Shown: positions 18,242 to 32,696 of the stretch, in pieces
Layout: every line of letters begins with the position of its first letter
Numbering within the stretch: the first letter of the stretch is position 1
NCBI GenBank assembly: GCA_905234365.1
Contig: CAJOHI010000009.1
Location: forward strand, 1-46,988
DNA length: 46,988 bases
Source: an uncultured Selenomonadaceae bacterium
Lineage (GTDB): Bacteria; Bacillota; Negativicutes; Selenomonadales; Selenomonadaceae
Direction: 5' to 3'
Made by a program: the position numbers and the translations under genes
Notes under the pieces: generated by a model
What the model was told of the DNA's origin: nothing
Database searches by the model: none
Seen by the model: the letters and a program-made list of their open reading frames with translations, nothing else

Positions 18242-18745
18242 TTATGCCTTAAAATGCTGTACCCAAAAATGCTTGTAACGTGTATTTTTATCATAAAGAT
18301 AGCCGACGCCAATGTATTTATACTTTTTGTTTAGGATATTTGCTCTGTGTCCTGGACTATCCATCCATTGCTGCATAACCATTTCACAACTCGTTTGACC
18401 TGCAGCGATGTTTTCACCGGCGGATTTGTAGTCAATACCATAAAAAGCCGTATTGAATGGCAAGCCGTTCGGTCGAGTATGTGAAAAGACTTTTGTAATT
18501 TCCCTTGCACGAATTGCTGCCGGTCTTAAAAGTTCTCGCGATAATTTCAGCGGATTGAGACCGGCTTTTTTTCGTTCAATATTAACTAGTTCTACTATTC
18601 TTTCAATGGCCTCGTCGCGTGTAATTTCTGTTTTTGTTGATGATGTTATAGTTTCCGGCGCTTTGGAATATGTAATCGCCGGAGTCGAAATTAACATCAA
18701 CGCCACTATTGCAACGGAGAAAAATTTTCTAAATAAATTTATCAT
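18242..18745 (-). CDS. Secreted CAP-domain (SCP/PR1) protein, copy 2
   Basis: About 167 aa: a signal peptide (FFSVAIVALMLISTPAITYS), a short linker and a CAP domain. CAP motifs: ELVNIERKKAGLNPLKLS, FSHTRPNGLPF, GENIAAG and WMDSPGHRANILN, ending HFWVQHF. These include the His/Glu cavity residues of the YkwD-type bacterial group. The ATG at 18745 lies 5 nt after the stop of the upstream paralogue. Function of bacterial CAP proteins is mostly unknown; cell-wall association is common. Clear tandem duplicate of the next gene. Confidence 0.88.
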   Translation of the reverse strand: MINLFRKFFSVAIVALMLISTPAITYSKAPETITSSTKTEITRDEAIERIVELVNIERKKAGLNPLKLSRELLRPAAIRAREITKVFSHTRPNGLPFNTAFYGIDYKSAGENIAAGQTSCEMVMQQWMDSPGHRANILNKKYKYIGVGYLYDKNTRYKHFWVQHFKA

Positions 18746-18750
18746 ATCAA

Positions 18751-19281
18751 TCAACCAATAAATAATTGAACCCAATAATGTTCGTACATTGCGTCTTCAT
18801 CGTAAGTGTAACCAACGCCAAGATAACGGTATGCGCCATTCAAAATGTTGGCTCTATGACCGGCAGAGTTCATCCACTGTTCAACAACTTTTTCCGGTGT
18901 TGCTGAACCGGCAGCTATATTTTCAGCGCAAGTTCTATAATTAATACCTGACAATATGCTGAAACAACTTCTGCCATCAGGACGTGTATGAGAAAATACT
19001 TCAACAATTTCTTCGGCTCTAATGTTTGCCAACTCAGTCAAATCATCTGACAATTTAAGCGGTCTGACACCTGCTTTTTCGCGCTCAATGTTGACAAGTT
19101 CAAGCACCTCTTGAGCAAATTCCGAAGCCTCAGCGGAATCTTCGTCAATTTCCTCAACTTCCTCAATTTGACTTACACATGGACATGGATACGAACAAAC
19201 ATTATGAGCTGACACGTTTGAAGCTGTTGTTATCATTATAAATGCAACAGCTAACGGCACTTTTTTAATTAAATTTAACAT
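18751..19281 (-). CDS. Secreted CAP-domain (SCP/PR1) protein, copy 1
   Basis: A 176-aa exported protein. A signal peptide ends near ASNVSA, followed by a Cys-rich stretch (CSYPCPC), an acidic linker (EEVEEIDEDSAEASE) and a CAP domain (ELVNIEREKAGVRPLKLSD, FSHTRPDG, AENIAAG, WMNSAGHRANILN, YEHYWVQLF). The start is 4 nt after the argH stop, so argH and both CAP genes form one operon. The Cys-rich spacer is absent from the second copy and could form disulfides. Substrate unknown. Confidence 0.88.
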   Translation of the reverse strand: MLNLIKKVPLAVAFIMITTASNVSAHNVCSYPCPCVSQIEEVEEIDEDSAEASEFAQEVLELVNIEREKAGVRPLKLSDDLTELANIRAEEIVEVFSHTRPDGRSCFSILSGINYRTCAENIAAGSATPEKVVEQWMNSAGHRANILNGAYRYLGVGYTYDEDAMYEHYWVQLFIG

Positions 19282-23923: not shown

Positions 23924-24067
23924 TTATAAACTTTTCATCAAGTATTCATAAATTTGCTTGCCTATTGTCTCTTTAGGTTTGTCGTCACTTTTAATATTTT
24001 TATCTTCTCTGCGCGTTGGAGGAGATTTTTTTTCTTTACTTGAATGATTTTTCTTTAGTTTCTTCAT
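23924..24067 (-). CDS. Small basic peptide, last gene of the phosphoramidate operon
   Basis: A 47-aa open frame (starting MKKLKKNHSSKEKKSPPTRR) preceded by a good site, AGAGGTGAACGAT, which overlaps the stop codon of the glycosyltransferase gene. It is rich in Lys, Arg, Asp and Ser with a short amphipathic C-terminus (IGKQIYEYLMKSL). There is no signal peptide or membrane segment. I do not recognise it. Its position and ribosome binding site argue that it is translated; a short cytoplasmic or nucleic-acid-binding role is only a guess. Confidence 0.55.
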   Translation of the reverse strand: MKKLKKNHSSKEKKSPPTRREDKNIKSDDKPKETIGKQIYEYLMKSL

Positions 24068-24072
24068 ATCGT

Positions 24073-25089
24073 TCACCTCTTGAGATTCGCTGCATTAAAC
24101 AGATAAGAAATTAGCGCAGCATTTGAACCAAAAACCGGCGTTAAATTTTCACGCAATAAAACATCAATCAAATATGACGGATATTTTTGATAAACTTCCT
24201 CAAAATATTCCAAATGCTCACGAATGAAAAAATCTAAAACTTTGTAGCGATATTCTAAATTTTCTTCAGCGTTAAAGAATGAAATTTTACTCATAAATTG
24301 GTCAAAAACTTTTGTGCCTTCAAGAATTACATTCAAATAAATTTTAATCAGTTGTTCAGTTGTAACGTTACGATGTTGAAGCGATCCTTGACGGTAACGA
24401 TAAATATAAAATACATTCGGTATTCTGAAATATTTTTCAGCCAGGCACAGCGCCTTGAAACAAAAAGGCATATCTTCGGAATAAGTCATAATCGGAAATT
24501 CAATCTTATTGTCAATTAAAAAATCTCGTCTAAAAATTTTATTCCAGCAAGACCAAATAAAACCTTTATTGCAGAAAACTTTAACACGTTGAGCAAGATT
24601 GTTTGAAGCCGCCTTAACCGTTTTGACATGATGTCCGCCGACTTGCCAAGTATCCAGCTTGACGGGCGTATTTATACCAAATTCTTCGCTGCCATCATTT
24701 GTGGTGATAAATTGACTTGCGTGTAAAATATCTGCCTGCGTTTCTTCAGCAATATTATGAAGTTCCTCAAGTGCTGTAGGCGTCAACATGTCGTCACTGT
24801 CGAGAAATACAATATATTTGCCTTTTGCAGTTTTAATACCTTTGTTGCGTGGAATACCTGGTGCGCCGCCATTCTTTTTGAGTTTAATAAGCTGTAGACG
24901 ACTTTCAAATTGTGCCTTAAAATTTTCAACAATTTTAACGGAATTATCAGTGCTGCAATCGTCAACGATTATTAATTCATAATCTTTAAATGTCTGTGTC
25001 AAAACACTTTCAAGACATTGCTGAATATATTTTTCCACGTTATACATCGGAATTATCAAAGAAATTGCCGGCGATAAATTGTTACTCAT
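24073..25089 (-). CDS. GT2 family glycosyltransferase
   Basis: A 338-aa cytoplasmic GT-A glycosyltransferase. The N-terminal family 2 domain has SLIIPMYNVEKYIQQCLESV and IIVDDCSTDNS, and the metal-binding DxD motif is FLDSDD (near residue 95). A GGAPGIPRNKGI segment precedes it, and the variable C-terminal region presumably sets acceptor choice. I prefer the ATG at 25089, after GAGGATTAATTTT and past the stop of the preceding gene; an ATG at 25104 overlaps that gene. It probably adds a sugar to the glycan that receives the phosphoramidate. Confidence 0.88.
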   Translation of the reverse strand: MSNNLSPAISLIIPMYNVEKYIQQCLESVLTQTFKDYELIIVDDCSTDNSVKIVENFKAQFESRLQLIKLKKNGGAPGIPRNKGIKTAKGKYIVFLDSDDMLTPTALEELHNIAEETQADILHASQFITTNDGSEEFGINTPVKLDTWQVGGHHVKTVKAASNNLAQRVKVFCNKGFIWSCWNKIFRRDFLIDNKIEFPIMTYSEDMPFCFKALCLAEKYFRIPNVFYIYRYRQGSLQHRNVTTEQLIKIYLNVILEGTKVFDQFMSKISFFNAEENLEYRYKVLDFFIREHLEYFEEVYQKYPSYLIDVLLRENLTPVFGSNAALISYLFNAANLKR

Positions 25090-25093
25090 AAAA

Positions 25094-25852
25094 TTAATCC
25101 TCATTCAATATGCTGTATTGTTCAGGCGTCCAAGATTCATATAATGTCAAATCTTCAGGATTATCAACTTCCAAAAAAATTTCATCATATGCGATAGTTT
25201 TTATTTCTAAATTCTGAGTTAATAAATGTGAGAGCAAACTCGTCATGTCAATTTTTTCAACAGATTTTGGTAAATTGTCAGATTGCAGCACTTGAGAAAT
25301 TTTTGACCAGCTAAGTGGAGTAAATTTTAATAAACCCATATATTGACCTTCAATATCACTGAGTGATTTTGCCTTGTGTCCAATTTCAATGAGATTTGAA
25401 TTTTTATCCTTCTTGAAGGTCTCAATATCGTCTAAAGGATTATCAAAGCGCTCTTTCCACAGTTCCAAAAATTTCGTGTAATAAGTAATTGCAATGTCAG
25501 CTTTCGACTCAATCAATGATTTAACTGCCTTTGACGTGTAGATAATATCGGCATAACTTACAATACAATCATCGGTTTTAAGCCATTCATCAGCTTTCAA
25601 AAGAGTTGCAACCATGTTGGTCTTATCCCAAATATCGTTATGAAAATATTTTAAATTAGGTTGACGTTTTCTAATTTCTTCACTGCGATAACCAGTAATA
25701 ATTGCTATATCACTGATTCCGGCTTTTTTTAAAGAATTTAACTGCCACTCCAGCAAAGTTTTATTCCACAATTCAGTCAAACACTTTGGCAGAATGTCCG
25801 TCTTGTCTTTCATTCGACTGCCTCGACCGGCAGCAAGTATAATTGCTTTCAA
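25094..25852 (-). CDS. Predicted CTP:phosphoglutamine cytidylyltransferase (Cj1416-like)
   Basis: A 252-aa nucleotidyltransferase with the NTP-binding motif LAAGRGSRMKDKTDILPK (residues 6-23), the NMVATLL segment seen in choline-phosphate/alditol-type cytidylyltransferases and a metal-binding SYADIIY. In C. jejuni the similarly sized Cj1416 couples CTP to L-glutamine phosphate, giving CDP-L-glutamine. I infer that role because its neighbours match the other pathway enzymes. The start is TTG at 25852, after GAGGTGAAAC. Taken alone, a sugar-phosphate or choline-phosphate nucleotidyltransferase would be equally possible. Confidence 0.78.
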   Translation of the reverse strand: MKAIILAAGRGSRMKDKTDILPKCLTELWNKTLLEWQLNSLKKAGISDIAIITGYRSEEIRKRQPNLKYFHNDIWDKTNMVATLLKADEWLKTDDCIVSYADIIYTSKAVKSLIESKADIAITYYTKFLELWKERFDNPLDDIETFKKDKNSNLIEIGHKAKSLSDIEGQYMGLLKFTPLSWSKISQVLQSDNLPKSVEKIDMTSLLSHLLTQNLEIKTIAYDEIFLEVDNPEDLTLYESWTPEQYSILNED

Positions 25853-25861
25853 AGTTTCACC

Positions 25862-26458
25862 TCATTTGAAAAAGTTTTTAATCAATTCAACATCTTTGTT
25901 ATCAAAATTACTTTCACGTTCAGGATGCCAACTGACAGCGGCAATTTGCAAAGTTTTATGTTTAAATGCTTCGATTGAATTATCATCAGCATAACCGAGT
26001 ATTTGCAGATTATCCGGTGTATTAAAAAGTCCGAGAATATGATAACTATTGACGCTTTCACGGTTGATTATTCCATGAATTGCATGGCGCCTTCTGACGT
26101 GATTTTCAATTTTGGAAAGTTCAGCACCGAAATAATCGGCCAGAAATTGAAAGCCACGACAAATTCCAAAGACAGGTAAATTATTTTTAATTGCCCATGC
26201 AGTTAAAATTTTTTCAGTTTCATCGCGTTCAGGTGCATCACCACCATATTTTACAAGAGAATTGCCACCACTTAAAAAAATTCCTGCCGGTTGAATCTCA
26301 TTTAAAATGTCCTCAACAAATTCAGATACATTCGGAATCGGAATTGGAATATAGCCGCAATGTCGTAAAAATTTTGGAATCATCTGATCCGCACAGTCTC
26401 TACGCTCATTATAAGACGTTATGACCTCGACTCTCTGAGTATAAATTATCGCCTTCAT
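25862..26458 (-). CDS. Predicted gamma-glutamyl-CDP-amidate hydrolase (Cj1417-like)
   Basis: A 198-aa class I glutamine amidotransferase-fold protein (PuuD/peptidase C26 type). The nucleophile Cys100 is in FGICRGFQ and the pair His178/Glu180 in SWHPERE, so the triad is complete; the oxyanion strand reads FLSGGNSLV. Cj1417 of C. jejuni has this fold and size and splits CDP-L-glutamine into cytidine diphosphoramidate and glutamate. The ATG overlaps the preceding gene's stop by 4 nt (ATGA) and the cytidylyltransferase gene follows after 9 nt. Alone it could be any gamma-glutamyl hydrolase; the specific role is from context. Confidence 0.8.
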   Translation of the reverse strand: MKAIIYTQRVEVITSYNERRDCADQMIPKFLRHCGYIPIPIPNVSEFVEDILNEIQPAGIFLSGGNSLVKYGGDAPERDETEKILTAWAIKNNLPVFGICRGFQFLADYFGAELSKIENHVRRRHAIHGIINRESVNSYHILGLFNTPDNLQILGYADDNSIEAFKHKTLQIAAVSWHPERESNFDNKDVELIKNFFK

Positions 26459-28800
26459 CTCAAAATGTTCACCTGCTTTAAAGCAGCGTCAATCTCAATA
26501 AATTCAGCCGCCGAAATTCGATTGAATAATTTTTGTCCTGCGCCTATTACCGCCGGAATATTCAATTCTCCTGCACGAATTGCCATATGTGAATTTGCGC
26601 CGCCGTATTCCGTTATAAAGCCTGCAATATTATGCGAAAATATCCAATCGAATCCTGGATCTGCCGCTGGAATCAACAATATTTTGCCGCTTAAATCTTC
26701 TTCACTGCGACTTGTCACTAATGCCACATTGGATTTAACTTTTAACTGTGTTATAAAAGTTGGCTGCGAATCAGGTACAAAAAAGTTTTCAATATCTCTG
26801 GATTTCGTGATGAGTGGCGGTAATACTATATGCCTACTTTCCTCGTATCTGAGTTTGCCATTTACGATCGAATGCGTTAAAATCTTATATTCATCAGCAG
26901 TTGTGCCGTAAATTTCTTTAATAATTTGAATATTTGCAAATGCGCTGTCCTCACGAGATATATTGTATTTATTACACCATGTGCCGAAAAGTTTTAAAGT
27001 TTCACTGAGATTTTTTGTAAAGATAAATTTACTCATCTCACGACCTTCAATAGCAGCCTTGATAAATGTAAACAATCCTAAAACATCATCAGTCATCTCG
27101 TGTTTTTCTAAGGCGTTGCGAATATGTCTTATCTGCGGCAGTGATAAGCGGAAATGTTCTTTTATTTCGCCTTCTTCCACTTGATTGTCATTTTGCCAGT
27201 GAAAATAAAATTCCGGTTTTTCGTCATATCTTTCAGAATTTATATCATAAGTACCTGGACGCAAATGTCCATATTTCTGCAAGAAAATTTCTTTGGATAA
27301 ATGATTAAAATCCGACTTCATTTTTGAGCCAACCGTTGACACATCAGACATAAAAGCATCGTATTCTTCTCGATTTATAATATTTTCCTTAACCATAGAT
27401 TGCAGGATTTGTACAGCAATAAATCCGGCGCGAGCCAATCCGGCAAAAGGTAAAGTGCCATAACGTTTACAATCTTCAATTAGCCAATACATCTTGCCAA
27501 TCTCGTCAAGACTACTATTTAATATTTCATTATAACGCTTTGCCAAAATATCAATTTTTTCGCTATCACTTATCCAAAGACCAGTTTTGCTGTTGATTAT
27601 TCTATTCGTGAGCTTGCGAAGGGATTTAATTATTGTGTTCATCTCATCAACAGAAAAACCATGTTCTTGCAAAATTTTAATACGCTTTGGCAAGTCGAAT
27701 GTATAGCAGGAAAATATTATATCAAATTCAACTTTATCATGATCTTGCGGACGCTTGGCAAGTTCATCAAGATAATAATTCACCAATTTTTCAGAGATTG
27801 AAGATGATAAATCCGCTGGAATAAATGAATTGAAACTTACACGCACGTCAATATAAGGAATGCCGCAAAAGTCAATCATCAATGGAAAACTTCTTAATCG
27901 TTTATAACCGTAATTATCGCGTTGATAAGCCCAAGTTGTATCCGTAATTAATTCTTTATATAGTGATAACGCTAAATTTTTAGGATGGACGCCGATCATT
28001 TCTGCCGGATTCCAATCAGTCATATTGCTATAAAGTGCCTTTTCTCCATATAAAAATGGCTTAGACATATTTGCTTTTTTAATATAATTTTTGATTCGGC
28101 GAATGCACAATTTTTGCTGCTCAATATCTGCAACAGATTGATTGAGACATAACGGACGAACTTGAAATATATAAATTTTGCCATTTTTGAAGGCAAATTC
28201 AACATCTAAAAGATTTGTTTCAAATAATTTTTCAAGTTCAGCTAAAACTGTACAAATGGTGCTTAAATAGGCGTTTTCAGGAAAAATAGGGGGGGGGGTA
28301 GCTGAATTTTTAAAGTGGTAAAATAATTTGTTTTCTTTGCCTTGACCACTTGTTACAGACGAAGTTGAACCGGACATATCATAATTTATAACATAATAAT
28401 TGCCGCCACTGTTAGGATCAACTGTAAAAGCAACTCCAGCACCTTCAACTTGCTCAAGGACAGGCTGAACTAAAACTTGATTTTTTATATCATAGATATC
28501 ATAAGAATTAAAGACATTTTCAACTGTACGAGCAAATTCATCTTGATTAAAATTACAAATTTCTGAAATGAATTTTCCGGCTTGAGAACCTTCTGCTGTA
28601 TCCTCATTTTGAGCACTACTGCGAACTATAATTTTATCGGAATCTGCAAATTTCTCACTGACAATCTGCCAAATATTTTTAGGATTGTTTTGCCAGTCTT
28701 CAAGCATAAAATAATACAGAGGCAGCACATTTGCACTGAACTCTGTCGAATGATTTAATAAAAATTCTAAGGTCTGCGCCTTAGTTTTAAAATTATACAT
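26455..28800 (-). CDS. Predicted L-glutamine kinase (PEP synthase-like, Cj1418-like), phase-variable
   Basis: A 781-aa protein of the PEP-synthase/PPDK superfamily. The N-terminal ATP-grasp domain (about 1-220) has IIVRSSAQNEDTAEGSQAGK and ends DVEFAFKNGKIYIFQVRPL. A long middle region follows. The C-terminal swivelling phosphohistidine domain has YGGANSHMAIRAGELNIP with catalytic His738. The PEP-binding barrel of true PEP synthases is missing, as in the C. jejuni glutamine kinase Cj1418, which phosphorylates the glutamine amide nitrogen. Codons 168-171 span a C10 tract that is in frame here. One base more or less gives a 174- or 178-residue fragment. ATG follows GGAGATTTTTT. Confidence 0.82.
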   Translation of the reverse strand: MYNFKTKAQTLEFLLNHSTEFSANVLPLYYFMLEDWQNNPKNIWQIVSEKFADSDKIIVRSSAQNEDTAEGSQAGKFISEICNFNQDEFARTVENVFNSYDIYDIKNQVLVQPVLEQVEGAGVAFTVDPNSGGNYYVINYDMSGSTSSVTSGQGKENKLFYHFKNSATPPPIFPENAYLSTICTVLAELEKLFETNLLDVEFAFKNGKIYIFQVRPLCLNQSVADIEQQKLCIRRIKNYIKKANMSKPFLYGEKALYSNMTDWNPAEMIGVHPKNLALSLYKELITDTTWAYQRDNYGYKRLRSFPLMIDFCGIPYIDVRVSFNSFIPADLSSSISEKLVNYYLDELAKRPQDHDKVEFDIIFSCYTFDLPKRIKILQEHGFSVDEMNTIIKSLRKLTNRIINSKTGLWISDSEKIDILAKRYNEILNSSLDEIGKMYWLIEDCKRYGTLPFAGLARAGFIAVQILQSMVKENIINREEYDAFMSDVSTVGSKMKSDFNHLSKEIFLQKYGHLRPGTYDINSERYDEKPEFYFHWQNDNQVEEGEIKEHFRLSLPQIRHIRNALEKHEMTDDVLGLFTFIKAAIEGREMSKFIFTKNLSETLKLFGTWCNKYNISREDSAFANIQIIKEIYGTTADEYKILTHSIVNGKLRYEESRHIVLPPLITKSRDIENFFVPDSQPTFITQLKVKSNVALVTSRSEEDLSGKILLIPAADPGFDWIFSHNIAGFITEYGGANSHMAIRAGELNIPAVIGAGQKLFNRISAAEFIEIDAALKQVNILR
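28289..28298. repeat. Homopolymeric G10 tract (C10 on the coding strand) in the glutamine kinase gene
   Basis: Ten consecutive G on the plus strand, within codons 168-171 (Thr-Pro-Pro-Pro). With C10 the frame is open. C9 meets TAA after 178 codons and C11 meets TGA after 174. Runs this long are improbable in AT-rich coding DNA unless maintained, and are typical phase-variation switches. Confidence 0.92.
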
Positions 28801-28832
28801 AAAAAATCTCCGTTAATATTTAAATCTACAAT

Positions 28833-29597
28833 TTACAAAGCCTGAACAGTCCAAGCTCTCGAACGATAAGGCACAACAATTTCTTCATAAGGCTCTATAA
28901 TCTCAGCAATTTTGTCAAGGATTTTTTGGAACATATCTTCACCAGCTTGAACTCGAATATCATTGACTGAACGCCAAACACCCATATAACGTTCTTTACT
29001 CATTGTAACAGAATGTGGCGATTCGGTAAATATTATATTGCCGAAATATTTTGTCGAAAGTAATTTGCCTTCAATGTCGCCAATATTTTTTTTGCCGCCA
29101 GACGAAACGCGCTTCATATTTGGAACAGAATCATAAATGACCTGCTCAATGCGTTCATGCAATTCGTGACCTTCAATATCTCTTGGATTATAAATTGCCG
29201 TAAAATATCCTCCAGGCTTCAAAATCCTATGAAATTCAATCAATGCTTCTTCAGTGTTTGCCCAATGGAATGAAGAACCCATTAAAACCCAATCAAAATT
29301 ATTTTCCGGCAAATTTGTATGTTCTGCAGTGCCCTTGCTCCAAATGAAATTACTCTTGCCTTCAAAAGTTTTTATGCCTTCTTCGCGCATTGCATCATTT
29401 GGCTCAACTGCACAACCAACCATACCCAAACCGGCAAGTTCCTCTGTGAGTTTACCGGTTCCTGCACCTACATCAGCGACGTAAAAATCACGTCTATCCA
29501 TACCGATTGAGCGACCAATCATTTTTAAGACATTTCGCGAATATCCAGGTCTGTTGACATATTCTTTGGCTAATTTTGTAAAATCTCCATGTTTCAT
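28833..29597 (-). CDS. SAM-dependent methyltransferase, second paralogue of the phosphoramidate operon
   Basis: A 254-aa class I methyltransferase: motif I VADVGAGTGKLTEELAGLG, post-I CAVEPNDAMREEG, motif IV VLMGSSFHWANTEEAL. It is clearly paralogous to the upstream gene (shared VEPNDAMR, GSSF, ILKPGGYF/ILKPNGWF). The ATG at 29597 follows GGGAGGATTTTTA and matches the paralogue's N-terminus. An ATG at 29645 overlapping the upstream stop (TAATG) would add 16 unrelated residues. Its ribosome binding site is inside a hairpin. C. jejuni has the methyltransferase genes cj1419-cj1420 beside its phosphoramidate genes. The methyl acceptor could be the phosphoramidate oxygen or the glycan. Confidence 0.85.
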   Translation of the reverse strand: MKHGDFTKLAKEYVNRPGYSRNVLKMIGRSIGMDRRDFYVADVGAGTGKLTEELAGLGMVGCAVEPNDAMREEGIKTFEGKSNFIWSKGTAEHTNLPENNFDWVLMGSSFHWANTEEALIEFHRILKPGGYFTAIYNPRDIEGHELHERIEQVIYDSVPNMKRVSSGGKKNIGDIEGKLLSTKYFGNIIFTESPHSVTMSKERYMGVWRSVNDIRVQAGEDMFQKILDKIAEIIEPYEEIVVPYRSRAWTVQAL

Positions 29598-29601
29598 TAA
29601 A

Positions 29602-29638
29602 AATCCTCCCATACGACACTTAACCCTATGGGAAGATT
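29602..29638 (-). promoter_or_regulatory. Hairpin sequestering the ribosome binding site of the second methyltransferase
   Basis: In the transcript AATCTTCCCATA pairs over 12 bp (one G-U) with TATGGGAGGATT around a 13-nt loop. The 3' arm contains the GGGAGGA ribosome binding site of the gene starting at 29597. The 5' arm begins about 6 nt after the upstream stop codon, so a terminating ribosome would open it. Confidence 0.65.
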
Positions 29639-29644
29639 TCAGCA

Positions 29645-30406
29645 TTATTTTATAACACGAGCCATCCAGCCATTTGTCTCGTATGGAACGTCAATAGACT
29701 CTTTATTTAAAGATTTAAGCATATTGGCAATATCCTCAATTATCGCTGAAAAATTATCTCCGGCTTGACGGAAAAGCGTGCCATGTGAGCGCCATCCTTC
29801 GATAATATCCTCAATCGGAACGGAATGGACAACTTGCCCGTTAAACTGCTGAATATTATCAAAGCGTCCACTTGCCTTTATAACTTCTGTTTGATCTTCA
29901 CGACGTGTGCCATAGCTATAATCTTTCACATAGGATTTAATAATATTTTCAATTTTCTTTTGAATTGGATCTGACAAATCGCGATGATTCCACATACAAG
30001 CAAACCAACCATTTGGCTTGAGAATCCTCTGACTTTCTTCCAATGCTTCTTGTCTGTTTGTCACGTTAAATGAGGAACCAAACGTCACCAAGTCAAACAT
30101 ATCTGCCGGCTGTCCGGTATGCTCGCCAACGCCTTCAAACCATTTGACATTTTTATATTCTGCTGTACGTTTAATTCCGTTTGCACGCATTGCATCATTT
30201 GGCTCAACTGCATGAACTTTAAATCCACGTTTTGCCAATTCAATGGTTAAATGTGCAGCACCAGCACCAACGTCGCAGATTATACCCCCCCCCCTATCAT
30301 TGTCTAAACCAGCAATATTAAGCATTTTATCAATTGCTTTCACAGCATAATTAGGACGCTTTACATAAGCTGCCGCTAATTCCGTATAATCCCATTCAGT
30401 TTTCAA
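29645..30406 (-). CDS. SAM-dependent methyltransferase, first paralogue, phase-variable
   Basis: A 253-aa class I methyltransferase: motif I IICDVGAGAAHLTIELAKRG, post-I HAVEPNDAMRANG, motif IV LVTFGSSFNVTNRQEAL. It starts with TTG after GAGGAGGAATTTTT, 12 nt downstream of the transferase gene. Codons 38-41 (Arg-Gly-Gly-Gly) are a G10 tract just before motif I. G9 stops at codon 42 and G11 after 55 residues, so either slip abolishes the enzyme. A phase-variable methyltransferase next to phosphoramidate genes is also the arrangement described for cj1420 in C. jejuni. Acceptor unknown. Confidence 0.86.
   Translation of the reverse strand: MKTEWDYTELAAAYVKRPNYAVKAIDKMLNIAGLDNDRGGGIICDVGAGAAHLTIELAKRGFKVHAVEPNDAMRANGIKRTAEYKNVKWFEGVGEHTGQPADMFDLVTFGSSFNVTNRQEALEESQRILKPNGWFACMWNHRDLSDPIQKKIENIIKSYVKDYSYGTRREDQTEVIKASGRFDNIQQFNGQVVHSVPIEDIIEGWRSHGTLFRQAGDNFSAIIEDIANMLKSLNKESIDVPYETNGWMARVIK
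30285..30294. repeat. Homopolymeric G10 tract (C10 on plus strand) in the first methyltransferase gene
   Basis: Ten C on the plus strand, ten G on the coding strand, at codons 38-41. Frame open at ten. G9 gives TAA immediately after the tract; G11 gives TGA 14 codons after it. It shares the flanks of the other tract: ATAGGGGGGGGGGTA occurs in both, in opposite orientation. Confidence 0.92.
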
Positions 30407-30418
30407 AAAAATTCCTCC

Positions 30419-32113
30419 TCATTCACTTTCTTTATTTTCCTTTTCAATAACAGGTCGAATAACTTTAGGCAAAACAACTTTCCCTTCTTTGACAAATTGC
30501 AAGCAAAGCATCATTACTTGATAAATACGTTGACGCAACGCATTTGCATTCCAATTTTTATTTCTTTCCACCATAGATTTTTCAATTCTAAATGGAAACT
30601 TCAGTAAATAAGCAATATCTTGTTCATTCATTGGACATTCTTCAAAATTGAAGGTTGGATAATCATAATAACGAAGTAATAAATCGAAAAAAATTTTAAG
30701 TCTCTCTTTATCAAACTCTGAGTAGGTAAAATCTATATTTCTATTTAATGGAGCATTATCAAAGCCTTTTACAAATTTTAAATCTTTTAATCCCGGAACA
30801 TCTGGAATAGTTGTAACAGGAACTGCAGGATCTATCATGTTATCATGGTATGGCACATCAAGACATTCGCAAATTGCACGGCTGGTTTCTTCTGGATACA
30901 TCTTTAAATCTTCAAAACGGTATGAATAATATTTATTTCGGAGTTCAGGATGCATATTTAACGCTGCAGTATAAGGAGACCAGATATGTAAATATTTTGC
31001 TTCTTTATCACGCATAAACTGTCGTCCCGTATGAATCAATGGATTTCTCATACTTCCTATGATCATATGGTATGGAAAACAATTCATAATTAATGGTTCC
31101 AAAGCTCCATCTGCATATGTATGAGGATCCCAAACAATTATAGGTGAAACTCTGGGATTTAATTCTACGTTAGTTAATTCATTATCTTTATAAAATCTGA
31201 AGATGAAATACGCCTTAAAAAGTTCAGGTAATGTAAAATTCTTTTTTTTACTTTCATTAATTTTCATCCAATTTACAAATTCTAAACAGTCTACCCATAT
31301 TAATTTATTTTTACGATAATAGCTAACAATACTTTTAGTATTATATTTTGTTTGAAAATCTTTTAAAAATTTTGGATATGAAGAATTGACATTATCAAGA
31401 GGCAAATCATGATTACATCTTGCTGAAATATCTAAAGTTTCTATTCCAAAAACAACACCCGTTCCACCTAAAGGCAACCAACAACATAAACGGTTCATTT
31501 CTTCGATACGCAATCTTGTTGGTTTCATTTTGCTATAATCTATACCAAATCTTTCCTTAAAATCCCAAGGATAAGTTTTAGCCTCATCACCAATCAAAAA
31601 GACAAATTTGTTATTACGACATATTTCAGAAAAATTGACATAACAAAGCAGCAATGAAAATTCGTCCATATCTTTATACTGTATGTAAATATGATTGTCT
31701 CCGGCAAAATCTTGACTGTCTCTTACAGTGTCCGACAAAAATTTTAGATTAAATTTATTATATTCTGCTTCTAATAATAATGGTTTTTCCAAATCTCTAT
31801 AAAAATATTTCGTTTCTCTTATCGAGTTTGTTTCCAATTTATCAACTATCTTATTCTTTTGGTCAAAACGATAAGCAATTTCTTCTGTTGGTCGAAACAA
31901 TAAATAACGGTTTTCATGTGGAGATACAAAATTTTTATTTATTAAAAACGGATATTCCGATAAAAATTTAGCATTTATTTGATAATTAGTTTTCATTGTA
32001 GGAAGAAACGGTAGCCAATATTTTTCTTTGAATTCTTCTATATCTTTTGATTCATTTAAATATTTAAGTTTTTGTTCAAATTCTTGAATAAAATGTGCTT
32101 GTTCTTCATTCAT
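30419..32113 (-). CDS. Large sulfotransferase-like protein, predicted phosphoramidate transferase
   Basis: A 564-aa cytoplasmic protein that I cannot place by whole length. Residues 345-425 look like the C-terminal half of a sulfotransferase. IIGSMRNPLIHTGRQFM resembles the 3'-phosphate-binding RxP region, and YRFEDLKMYPEETSRAICECLDVPY the closing helix motif. LPLGGTG (213-219) could be the 5'-phosphosulfate-type loop. The pathway kinase makes a 3'-phospho donor analogous to PAPS, so a sulfotransferase-fold enzyme is the expected final transferase, comparable to C. jejuni Cj1421/Cj1422. Start overlaps the kinase stop (ATGA). Codon use is visibly AT-rich. An ordinary carbohydrate sulfotransferase is the main alternative. 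Confidence 0.62.
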   Translation of the reverse strand: MNEEQAHFIQEFEQKLKYLNESKDIEEFKEKYWLPFLPTMKTNYQINAKFLSEYPFLINKNFVSPHENRYLLFRPTEEIAYRFDQKNKIVDKLETNSIRETKYFYRDLEKPLLLEAEYNKFNLKFLSDTVRDSQDFAGDNHIYIQYKDMDEFSLLLCYVNFSEICRNNKFVFLIGDEAKTYPWDFKERFGIDYSKMKPTRLRIEEMNRLCCWLPLGGTGVVFGIETLDISARCNHDLPLDNVNSSYPKFLKDFQTKYNTKSIVSYYRKNKLIWVDCLEFVNWMKINESKKKNFTLPELFKAYFIFRFYKDNELTNVELNPRVSPIIVWDPHTYADGALEPLIMNCFPYHMIIGSMRNPLIHTGRQFMRDKEAKYLHIWSPYTAALNMHPELRNKYYSYRFEDLKMYPEETSRAICECLDVPYHDNMIDPAVPVTTIPDVPGLKDLKFVKGFDNAPLNRNIDFTYSEFDKERLKIFFDLLLRYYDYPTFNFEECPMNEQDIAYLLKFPFRIEKSMVERNKNWNANALRQRIYQVMMLCLQFVKEGKVVLPKVIRPVIEKENKESE

Positions 32114-32631
32114 AATTTAAAATACTCCTCAATTTTTTCGACAATTTCTTCAGGCAATTCAGTACCATTATTTTCAATAATCATATCTGGCTGTTTAGGA
32201 TATTCCATATTTACACCAAATCCAACAAGTTCGTGTTTTGATGATTCATAAAGACCTTTTTGATTTCTTTTCATTAATACATTATCGTCAACTTTTAAAT
32301 AAATTTCTCGATAATTTTTAATATTTTCGCGGTTCCAGGCTCTTACATCGTCAAACATTGAAATTGTACAACAAATTACATCTATTCCTTGACATGCCAG
32401 CATATTGCAAATACGAGCATTTCTCATTGCACTTTTATAACGATCTTCAGCAGTATAACCAAGATCATTTCCAAAGACTTCACGTAAAATATCGCCATCA
32501 AGAAATATCACATTCTGCTTCATTTGTCGCAATTTGTTATAAAATAACTTGCCTATCGTAGTTTTTCCGGCACCAGACAGTCCAGTTATCCAATAAACAA
32601 CTCCAAAATCAAATTTATCAATTTTAAACAT
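32110..32631 (-). CDS. Predicted cytidine diphosphoramidate kinase (APS kinase-like, Cj1415-like)
   Basis: A 173-aa P-loop kinase of the adenylylsulfate-kinase family. Walker A is GLSGAGKT (residues 17-24), followed by FLDGDILREVFGNDLGYTAEDR, the nucleotide-substrate DGD motif. It aligns along its length with CysC. In C. jejuni Cj1415 phosphorylates the ribose 3'-OH of cytidine diphosphoramidate. No sulfate-activation genes (cysD/cysN) are in the window, and the four pathway neighbours favour this role over APS kinase. The ATG at 32631 follows GGTGTTTTT; it is the first gene of the operon. Confidence 0.8.
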   Translation of the reverse strand: MFKIDKFDFGVVYWITGLSGAGKTTIGKLFYNKLRQMKQNVIFLDGDILREVFGNDLGYTAEDRYKSAMRNARICNMLACQGIDVICCTISMFDDVRAWNRENIKNYREIYLKVDDNVLMKRNQKGLYESSKHELVGFGVNMEYPKQPDMIIENNGTELPEEIVEKIEEYFKL

Positions 32632-32667
32632 AAAAACACCATAATAATAAAACAATATATTTTACAA

Positions 32668-32696
32668 AGTTTAATATATTTTAATTTTATTGTCAA
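32668..32696 (-). promoter_or_regulatory. Promoter of the phosphoramidate operon
   Basis: A perfect -35 TTGACA (32691-32696), a 17-nt spacer and the -10-like TAAACT (32668-32673) lie on the minus strand. The start would be near 32661, leaving a 30-nt leader. Confidence 0.6.

Follow-up and report, generated by a model that had tools for sequence, protein, structure and literature searches.

A predicted phosphoramidate operon in a Selenomonadaceae genome that places a CysC-like kinase beside a sulfotransferase-superfamily protein

The stretch analyzed here, referred to as the window, is the 46,988 nucleotides of contig CAJOHI010000009.1 (positions 1 to 46,988, forward strand; GenBank assembly GCA_905234365.1) of an uncultured Selenomonadaceae bacterium, and the element in question is a run of eight minus-strand genes, overlapping or tightly packed, that extends from 32655 to 24073 and is predicted to make a nucleotide-linked phosphoramidate. 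With open reading frames (ORFs) listed from 80 amino acids (aa) upward, the order from 32655 is a kinase (181 aa), a protein that we call T564 (564 aa; its family, T), the methyltransferases MT2 (253 aa) and MT1 (254 aa), proteins of 781, 198 and 252 aa and a GT2 glycosyltransferase, with spacings between successive listed ORFs of -4, 12, -1, 32, -4, 9 and -11 bases.

32110..32655, minus strand: Cj1415-type kinase, predicted 3'-kinase of cytidine diphosphoramidate (CDP-amidate), by PRK05541 profile; a TTG start is listed and an ATG at 32631 is possible
30419..32113, minus strand: T564, sulfotransferase-superfamily protein and predicted phosphoramidate transferase, by family profile against the PDB
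29645..30406, minus strand: MT2, S-adenosylmethionine (SAM) methyltransferase, by Methyltransf_11 (Pfam)
28833..29597, minus strand: MT1, SAM methyltransferase, with its start set by homologues; the listed ORF begins at 29645
26455..28800, minus strand: Cj1418-type L-glutamine kinase, 781 aa, by NF004508 profile
25862..26458, minus strand: Cj1417-type gamma-glutamyl-CDP-amidate hydrolase, 198 aa; NF045546 is the best model, under its cut-off
25094..25852, minus strand: probable Cj1416-type phosphoglutamine cytidylyltransferase, 252 aa, by NTP_transf_3 and solved matches
24073..25089, minus strand: GT2 glycosyltransferase, by Glycos_transf_2 (121 bits); the listed ORF extends to 25104
32668..32696, minus strand: promoter-like site, 10 of 12 matches, not above chance

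The leftward run of overlapping or close genes described in the original prediction is confirmed by the ORF list (gaps of -11 to 32 bases), but where nine genes had been claimed we find eight, with no minus-strand ORF of at least 80 aa between 23924 and 24073. Two methyltransferases, a GT2 and a sulfotransferase-like protein had been named, and profiles agree. The start of MT1 is more likely at 29597, which has GGGAGGA upstream, than at the listed 29645, which would give 270 aa, and nearly all of its 21 homologues (58-87% identical) begin at M17; GT2 likely starts at 25089, which is preceded by GAGGA. The promoter that had been placed at 32668-32696 exists as a site, but the scan finds 43 such sites in the real sequence against 40.5 ± 6.0 in shuffles, and it lists no terminator-like site on the minus strand 3' of GT2. 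All eight frames are open, with motif residues present, and the operon is flanked by rpiB (Pfam) and a malic enzyme gene (named by eye), a setting that is not a capsule locus. The GC content is 29-30% in the genes for the kinase and T564, 39-40% in MT1 and MT2 and 34-36% in the other operon genes, with 37% for the window; these differences suggest a possible mosaic, although they are no proof of one.

The four fold assignments to the types of Campylobacter jejuni Cj1415-Cj1418 are borne out by profile searches, the match to the C. jejuni enzymes resting on family models rather than on direct alignment with the C. jejuni proteins. Among the curated NCBIfam models the 781-aa protein matches PRK05849/NF004508 at 920 bits (cut-off 501), which we take to be the family holding Cj1418. 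A phosphoenolpyruvate (PEP) synthase as closest family had been set beforehand as an adverse outcome, and this identity is rejected, the best PEP synthase model, PRK06241, scoring 56 bits against a cut-off of 850; with solved PEP synthases, the top-scoring stretch is confined to the mobile domain. The residues invariant in glutamine kinases, in all 14 sequences aligned, are His738 (in GGANSHMAI), Arg60-Ser62, Glu66, Asp67, Glu201, Gln213 and Arg215. At E≤1e-20 the protein is matched by 6235 others, and the best named relative among the best 120, which were those examined, is from a Selenomonadaceae metagenome-assembled genome (73%). For the 198-aa protein the top NCBIfam model is NF045546, gamma-glutamyl-CDP-amidate hydrolase, at 123 bits, and the motifs GICRG (at 98) and HPE (at 178) are present. 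Six relatives that adjoin glutamine kinase genes score 102-128 bits on this model, always as the top model, so a low score is common to the group tested. The 252-aa protein matches NTP_transf_3 at 64.6 bits (Pfam), with no dedicated cytidylyltransferase model among its matches; it carries a GXGSR..PK motif at residue 9, and its likeness is to the cytidylyltransferases LicC and PntC, the best solved matches being the phosphocholine cytidylyltransferase 1jyk and 6pd1 (PntC, PMC6697681). No PEP mutase match is listed for any of the eight operon proteins in Pfam or NCBIfam profiles.

The kinase matches PRK05541 at 167.6 bits (NCBIfam cut-off 127), presumably the family that covers Cj1415. Its neighbor T564, taken alone, has no Pfam match at 0.01. 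A profile built from 70 T homologues matches ten PDB sequences at E≤10, and all four of those at E≤0.01 are named sulfotransferases: the CurM sulfotransferase at 1.7e-7 and TPST1 at 0.0017-0.0026. Four weaker matches (4gox, Teg14 and TEG12 twice) are also sulfotransferases. A second alignment was made from ten relatives in genomes of the window's family, and some of its proteins may also be in the first; it gives nine PDB matches at E≤1. Eight of the nine are named sulfotransferases, with CurM at 3.7e-7 and the seven tyrosine sulfotransferases at 0.016-0.15, and the ninth is 4gox. Sulfotransfer_3 is matched by 19 of 70 members of the first alignment at E≤0.1 and by 10 of 10 members of the second at E≤0.01. 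Gly219, Arg356, Glu401, Asp402 and Lys404 are invariant in all 70, in contexts such as GYSGTLFGLNLLDHN, RNP/RDP and RFEDxK, which are reminiscent of the elements with which sulfotransferases bind the 5'- and 3'-phosphates. At the level of the family, T is placed by these homologies in the sulfotransferase superfamily.

The operon has a close counterpart in genome G124 (survey numbers beginning with G denote genomes, those with L sequence pieces), where the order is T-kinase-MT2-MT1-glutamine kinase-hydrolase-cytidylyltransferase, with 22% identity to the window for T and 49-70% for the others, including 64% for MT2. The glutamine kinase is otherwise patchy, over cut-off in 5 of 189 genomes of the family. 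We surveyed 20 pieces bearing it, namely 14 plasmid-record loci and six pieces from five family genomes; near-duplicate plasmid records (three from Vibrio alfacsensis, two from Cupriavidus, an Agrobacterium-Allorhizobium pair and a Pseudohalocynthiibacter-Roseovarius pair) make the independent cases fewer. Hydrolase and cytidylyltransferase matches lie nearby in 11 of the 14 plasmid loci, the exceptions being two Cupriavidus loci and Microvirga. A CysC-like kinase is present at seven of the 20 pieces, and six of these seven (not G066) also hold MT1/MT2-like genes. Among the 13 pieces without that kinase, 12 have no MT1/MT2-like match, one of which, from G137, is cut at the contig start; the thirteenth, L059, holds the end of an MT2 and is the other half of a cassette that is split in G120. 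Transferases of the CDP type occur at several of the loci that have no CysC-like kinase: G009 has LicD (139 bits), Vibrio has Glyphos_transf (22.5 bits, cut-off 22.1), with Pseudohalocynthiibacter just short of that cut-off (21.2), and Agrobacterium vitis has a CDP-alcohol phosphatidyltransferase (40.6 bits). Viral contigs gave ten pattern matches, none related to glutamine kinase, and phage records gave one glutamine-kinase match (31%).

Several of these loci have features of their own. In G009 (L058 8605-12564) the glutamine kinase carries an N-terminal cytidylyltransferase-like domain and adjoins the LicD gene. On the Agrobacterium vitis and Allorhizobium ampelinum plasmids (L075 7914-13003; L081 7914-12993), LysE and a CDP-alcohol phosphatidyltransferase accompany the glutamine kinase, hydrolase and cytidylyltransferase genes, the glutamine kinase of L081 being annotated in two pieces. 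On Cupriavidus taiwanensis and Microvirga lotononidis plasmids (L053, L080, L074) a glutamine-kinase homologue of 32-33% identity, with no hydrolase or cytidylyltransferase nearby, adjoins a thiamine-diphosphate enzyme and an aminotransferase (in Microvirga by eye).

We also followed the kinase and T through 380 genomes belonging to the class of the window genome. Members of the T family occur in 15 of them (18 places) and the glutamine kinase in six (E≤1e-50), with both in four. Five of the 18 T places were left out (three N-terminal-only matches and two shorter pieces near contig starts in G173), and at nine of the remaining 13, or ten counting the split cassette of G120, a kinase of the operon's type, here called module-type, lies within ~4 kb; the places without a nearby kinase are G106, G094 and G137, the last with a T that begins at the end of its contig. 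A survey that took the kinase as its starting point, at E≤1e-30, gave 21 places in 18 of the 380 genomes. From their scores of 112-127 bits, six of these were taken to be canonical; five of the six lie in frames of 622-647 aa, that of G653 is uncertain, and the window genome's was the one inspected. The other 15 places are module-type, and T accompanies the kinase at ten of them (that of G120 on another contig).

The genes around the pair vary. G051 and G167 have near it a fusion of cytidylyltransferase with PEP mutase, together with an iron alcohol dehydrogenase and an enzyme of the phosphonopyruvate decarboxylase type; the G051 scores are 399 bits on TIGR02320 (cut-off 320) and 450 bits on TIGR03297 (cut-off 312). 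G173 has a PEP mutase and a kinase-methyltransferase fusion, and G164 a choline-kinase-like gene and a nucleotidyltransferase. What most of these loci have in common is the predicted activation of a phosphorus group by cytidine triphosphate (CTP) together with the kinase and T, and not sulfate or phosphoramidate. Because relatives hold the pair near activation genes for phosphonate or choline-phosphate, the two appear to form a cargo-independent module, a reading that takes gene order as its observation and adds a putative function. The simplest reading of gene order and homology is that the kinase would supply a 3'-phosphocytidine handle that T would read. The T of G124, although part of a phosphoramidate cassette, is 32-34% identical to T of phosphonate-type loci versus 22% to the window's, which suggests that T may recognize handle and acceptor more than cargo. 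A DHH-DHHA1 gene at the G066, G094 and G167 loci has NrnA as its best NCBIfam model (101-115 bits, cut-off 350); NrnA is a phosphatase of 3'-phosphoadenosine 5'-phosphate, and such a gene would suit disposal of 3'-phospho-CMP (CMP, cytidine monophosphate).

Individual pieces show the pair in similar company: L102 (1753-9225) and L107 (14-8382) carry kinase and T in apparent phosphonate operons, L107 with an NrnA-like DHH gene as well, and in L106 (955-8279) T lies near a kinase, a choline-kinase-like gene and a nucleotidyltransferase, genes from which choline-phosphate is possibly a third cargo. The kinase is fused to a SAM methyltransferase in L109 (3194-4357), near PEP mutase, and in L133 (2040-3197), near a LicD-like gene, the methyltransferase part being recognized by Pfam in L109 and by eye in L133; these fusions hint at a possible methylation of the group while it is still bound to the nucleotide.

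The superfamily to which T belongs is that of sulfotransferases using 3'-phosphoadenosine 5'-phosphosulfate (PAPS), and the kinase and T could simply serve PAPS sulfation while sitting by chance in a phosphoramidate cassette, with another transferase, for example an unlinked one, moving the phosphoramidate. The systems share the kinase fold, the sulfotransferase superfamily, the logic of a 3'-phosphonucleotide and, beside some relatives, an NrnA-like phosphatase gene. A different gene cluster of C. jejuni HS:19 has been proposed to carry out genuine sulfation from PAPS (PMC8743553). The systems differ in that no ATP sulfurylase is found beside the pair, its kinase is without the canonical motifs and its partners would activate phosphorus groups through CTP. 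An adenosine 5'-phosphosulfate (APS) kinase had been named in advance as a result that would count against the original prediction, and the gene does not look like a canonical one: besides matching PRK05541, it scores 101.6 bits on APS_kinase against 238.5 for a canonical CysN-CysC fusion encoded in the same genome. The motifs NIRR and FTGI, present in that fusion, are missing from all 13 module-type kinases aligned, the window's included, and by eye these have an M[FY] ... NR stretch in place of the SPYRADRERAR of the canonical CysC domain.

We looked for ATP sulfurylase, through PF01747 and CysD (cut-off 396.6), in 14 genomes of relatives, and for CysN in six of the 14. PF01747 was found in none of the 14; CysD is over cut-off in two (G000 and G173), with matches under cut-off in G066 and G068 (232 and 241 bits) that look genuine, and CysN passes its cut-off in G000 and G066. 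Kinase and T occur together in four genomes with a completeness of 90% or more, G124 (98%), G164 (99%), G167 (95%) and G120 (91%), none of which matches PF01747 or reaches more than 30 bits for CysD. In the 13 stretches around T or the kinase that were searched, the CysD and CysN parts of the window genome have no match. The argument that no ATP sulfurylase means no APS kinase was rejected for the genome of the window, which has CysD, CysN and the CysN-CysC fusion; it is valid only for the relatives. Given the missing motifs and the four genomes, we regard a sulfation pair as an unlikely explanation.

We consider it likely, from homology and gene order, that the operon makes 3'-phospho-CDP-(methyl)phosphoramidate, probably passed to a surface glycan by way of the sulfotransferase-like enzyme. 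The glutamine kinase would phosphorylate the amide nitrogen of glutamine, the cytidylyltransferase would couple the phosphorylated glutamine to CMP, the hydrolase would take off glutamate to give CDP-amidate and the PRK05541 kinase would put a 3'-phosphate on it; these four steps are published C. jejuni enzyme chemistry, assigned here by homology. T564 may then recognize the 3'-phosphocytidine part of this donor, much as 3'-phosphoadenosine is bound by PAPS sulfotransferases, and pass the phosphoramidate to a sugar hydroxyl with release of 3'-phospho-CMP. The O-methyl group would come from one of the methyltransferases or from both, and GT2 might build the acceptor. On the wider proposal we lean, if only slightly, toward a cytidine counterpart of PAPS, in which phosphoramidate, phosphonate and probably choline-phosphate would be activated by CTP, marked by a CysC-like 3'-kinase, transferred to glycans by sulfotransferase-superfamily enzymes and followed by clearance of 3'-phospho-CMP by an NrnA-like phosphatase, the window operon being its phosphoramidate branch.

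A number of observations pull the other way. The phosphoramidate operon of the original prediction is supported by the profiles, but its hydrolase, although matched best by the hydrolase model, scores 123 where the curated cut-off is 250. T564 alone reaches 14.6 bits on Sulfotransfer_3 (cut-off 27), and the window genome, with CysD and CysN on another contig, could make PAPS. Because 11 of the 15 T-bearing genomes are without glutamine kinase, including the same-genus G094 (T 50% identical), T is not a phosphoramidate marker, and T as a phosphoramidate-only enzyme was rejected. The T of G120, on another contig, is a fragment with a stop. T is missing from five of the 15 places with a module-type kinase: at G066 and G094:C51 a 983- or 960-aa protein adjoins the kinase, the first weakly matching Glyphos_transf (20.8 bits, cut-off 22.1) and the second alike by eye; G136 has a LicD-like gene and a kinase-methyltransferase fusion; and two tandem kinases in G128, the remaining two places, have neither such a large protein nor a LicD-like gene. 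Azospirillum kinase fusions of 846 and 838 aa give weak support, but no proof, for T acting on what the kinase makes, their N-terminus being weakly sulfotransferase-like (Sulfotransfer_2, E 0.014), with no PDB sulfotransferase match and no profile-profile link.

The position of the operon between rpiB and malic enzyme, outside a capsule locus, and the glutamine-kinase-like genes of Cupriavidus and Microvirga that stand without hydrolase and cytidylyltransferase would also fit a product that decorates no glycan but is a soluble phosphoramidate compound, such as an antibiotic or a signal. We judge this improbable given that the operon holds a GT2, with a 64% identical gene near the related T in G094, that Vibrio and Rhodobacterales relatives sit among polysaccharide genes and that profiles reveal no transporter or peptide gene among the eight. 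In G094 (81% complete; L101 511-6338) MT2, T, the NrnA-like DHH gene and GT2 adjoin malic enzyme (by eye), which is the position of the window's full cassette, and no glutamine kinase was found in this genome at that completeness. Such a reduced locus, and a glutamine kinase over cut-off in so few family genomes, are what a cassette decaying and inactive in the lineage would leave, but with eight open frames and motif residues kept in the window we hold decay to be very improbable. Elsewhere in the window, a tandem minus-strand gene pair at 18242-19281 encodes two proteins with a CAP (cysteine-rich secretory) domain.

The operon that we interpret as a phosphoramidate system shares with the C. 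jejuni O-methyl phosphoramidate (MeOPN) genes Cj1415-Cj1422 a glutamine kinase, a gene resembling that of APS kinase, a pair of methyltransferases, one candidate transferase and, with less certainty, the hydrolase and the cytidylyltransferase; it differs in lying outside a capsule locus, in having the kinase first, beside T, and in its extra GT2. The MeOPN enzymes and seven-gene sets are described in the accessible portions of PMC11924219, PMC13276843, PMC3907429 and PMC10919079, the sets of HS:1 and HS:19 having seven genes (PMC11924219, PMC13276843), and Cj1421 and Cj1422 are assigned as transferases by mutagenesis (PMC9561416, in the sections available). With PntC phosphonyl tailoring and the LicC-LicD phosphocholine pathway the operon shares the activation, here predicted, of a phosphorus group by a cytidylyltransferase; those pathways use CMP- or CDP-linked donors near LicD-like genes, whereas the window operon adds a 3'-kinase and a sulfotransferase-like protein. 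The available main text of PMC6697681, in which Cj1416 is aligned with PntC and CMP-phosphonate activation with LicD-like genes nearby is already known, has no word beginning with "kinase".

P-N bonds are rare in biology. Unmethylated phosphoramidate is reported in Xanthomonas and Shewanella lipopolysaccharide (PMC3907429, in part), so P-N glycan groups outside Campylobacter are not new. A 2019 review states that the modification is identified only in Campylobacter (PMC6429109), and a 2022 review calls the glutamine kinase C. jejuni-specific (PMC9561416), as far as the accessible text of each goes. In a searched literature without most subscription papers, key ones on C. jejuni enzymology included, we found no publication on this cassette or on genes for such groups outside Campylobacter, nor on a sulfotransferase-type phosphoramidate or phosphonate transferase. 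From the 6235 matches to the 781-aa protein, of which the best 120 were examined, it may be that phosphoramidate chemistry is common and goes under the name of PEP synthase. In a paper of 2026, the authors describe the enzymology of methyl phosphoramidate addition to HS:19 polysaccharide as unclear (PMC13276843, available text), and a sulfotransferase-like transferase acting on a 3'-phosphocytidine donor would be a testable answer to that question, one that ties phosphoramidate to phosphonate decoration of glycans. If the cytidine counterpart of PAPS is real, it would also explain why C. jejuni 3'-phosphorylates CDP-amidate.

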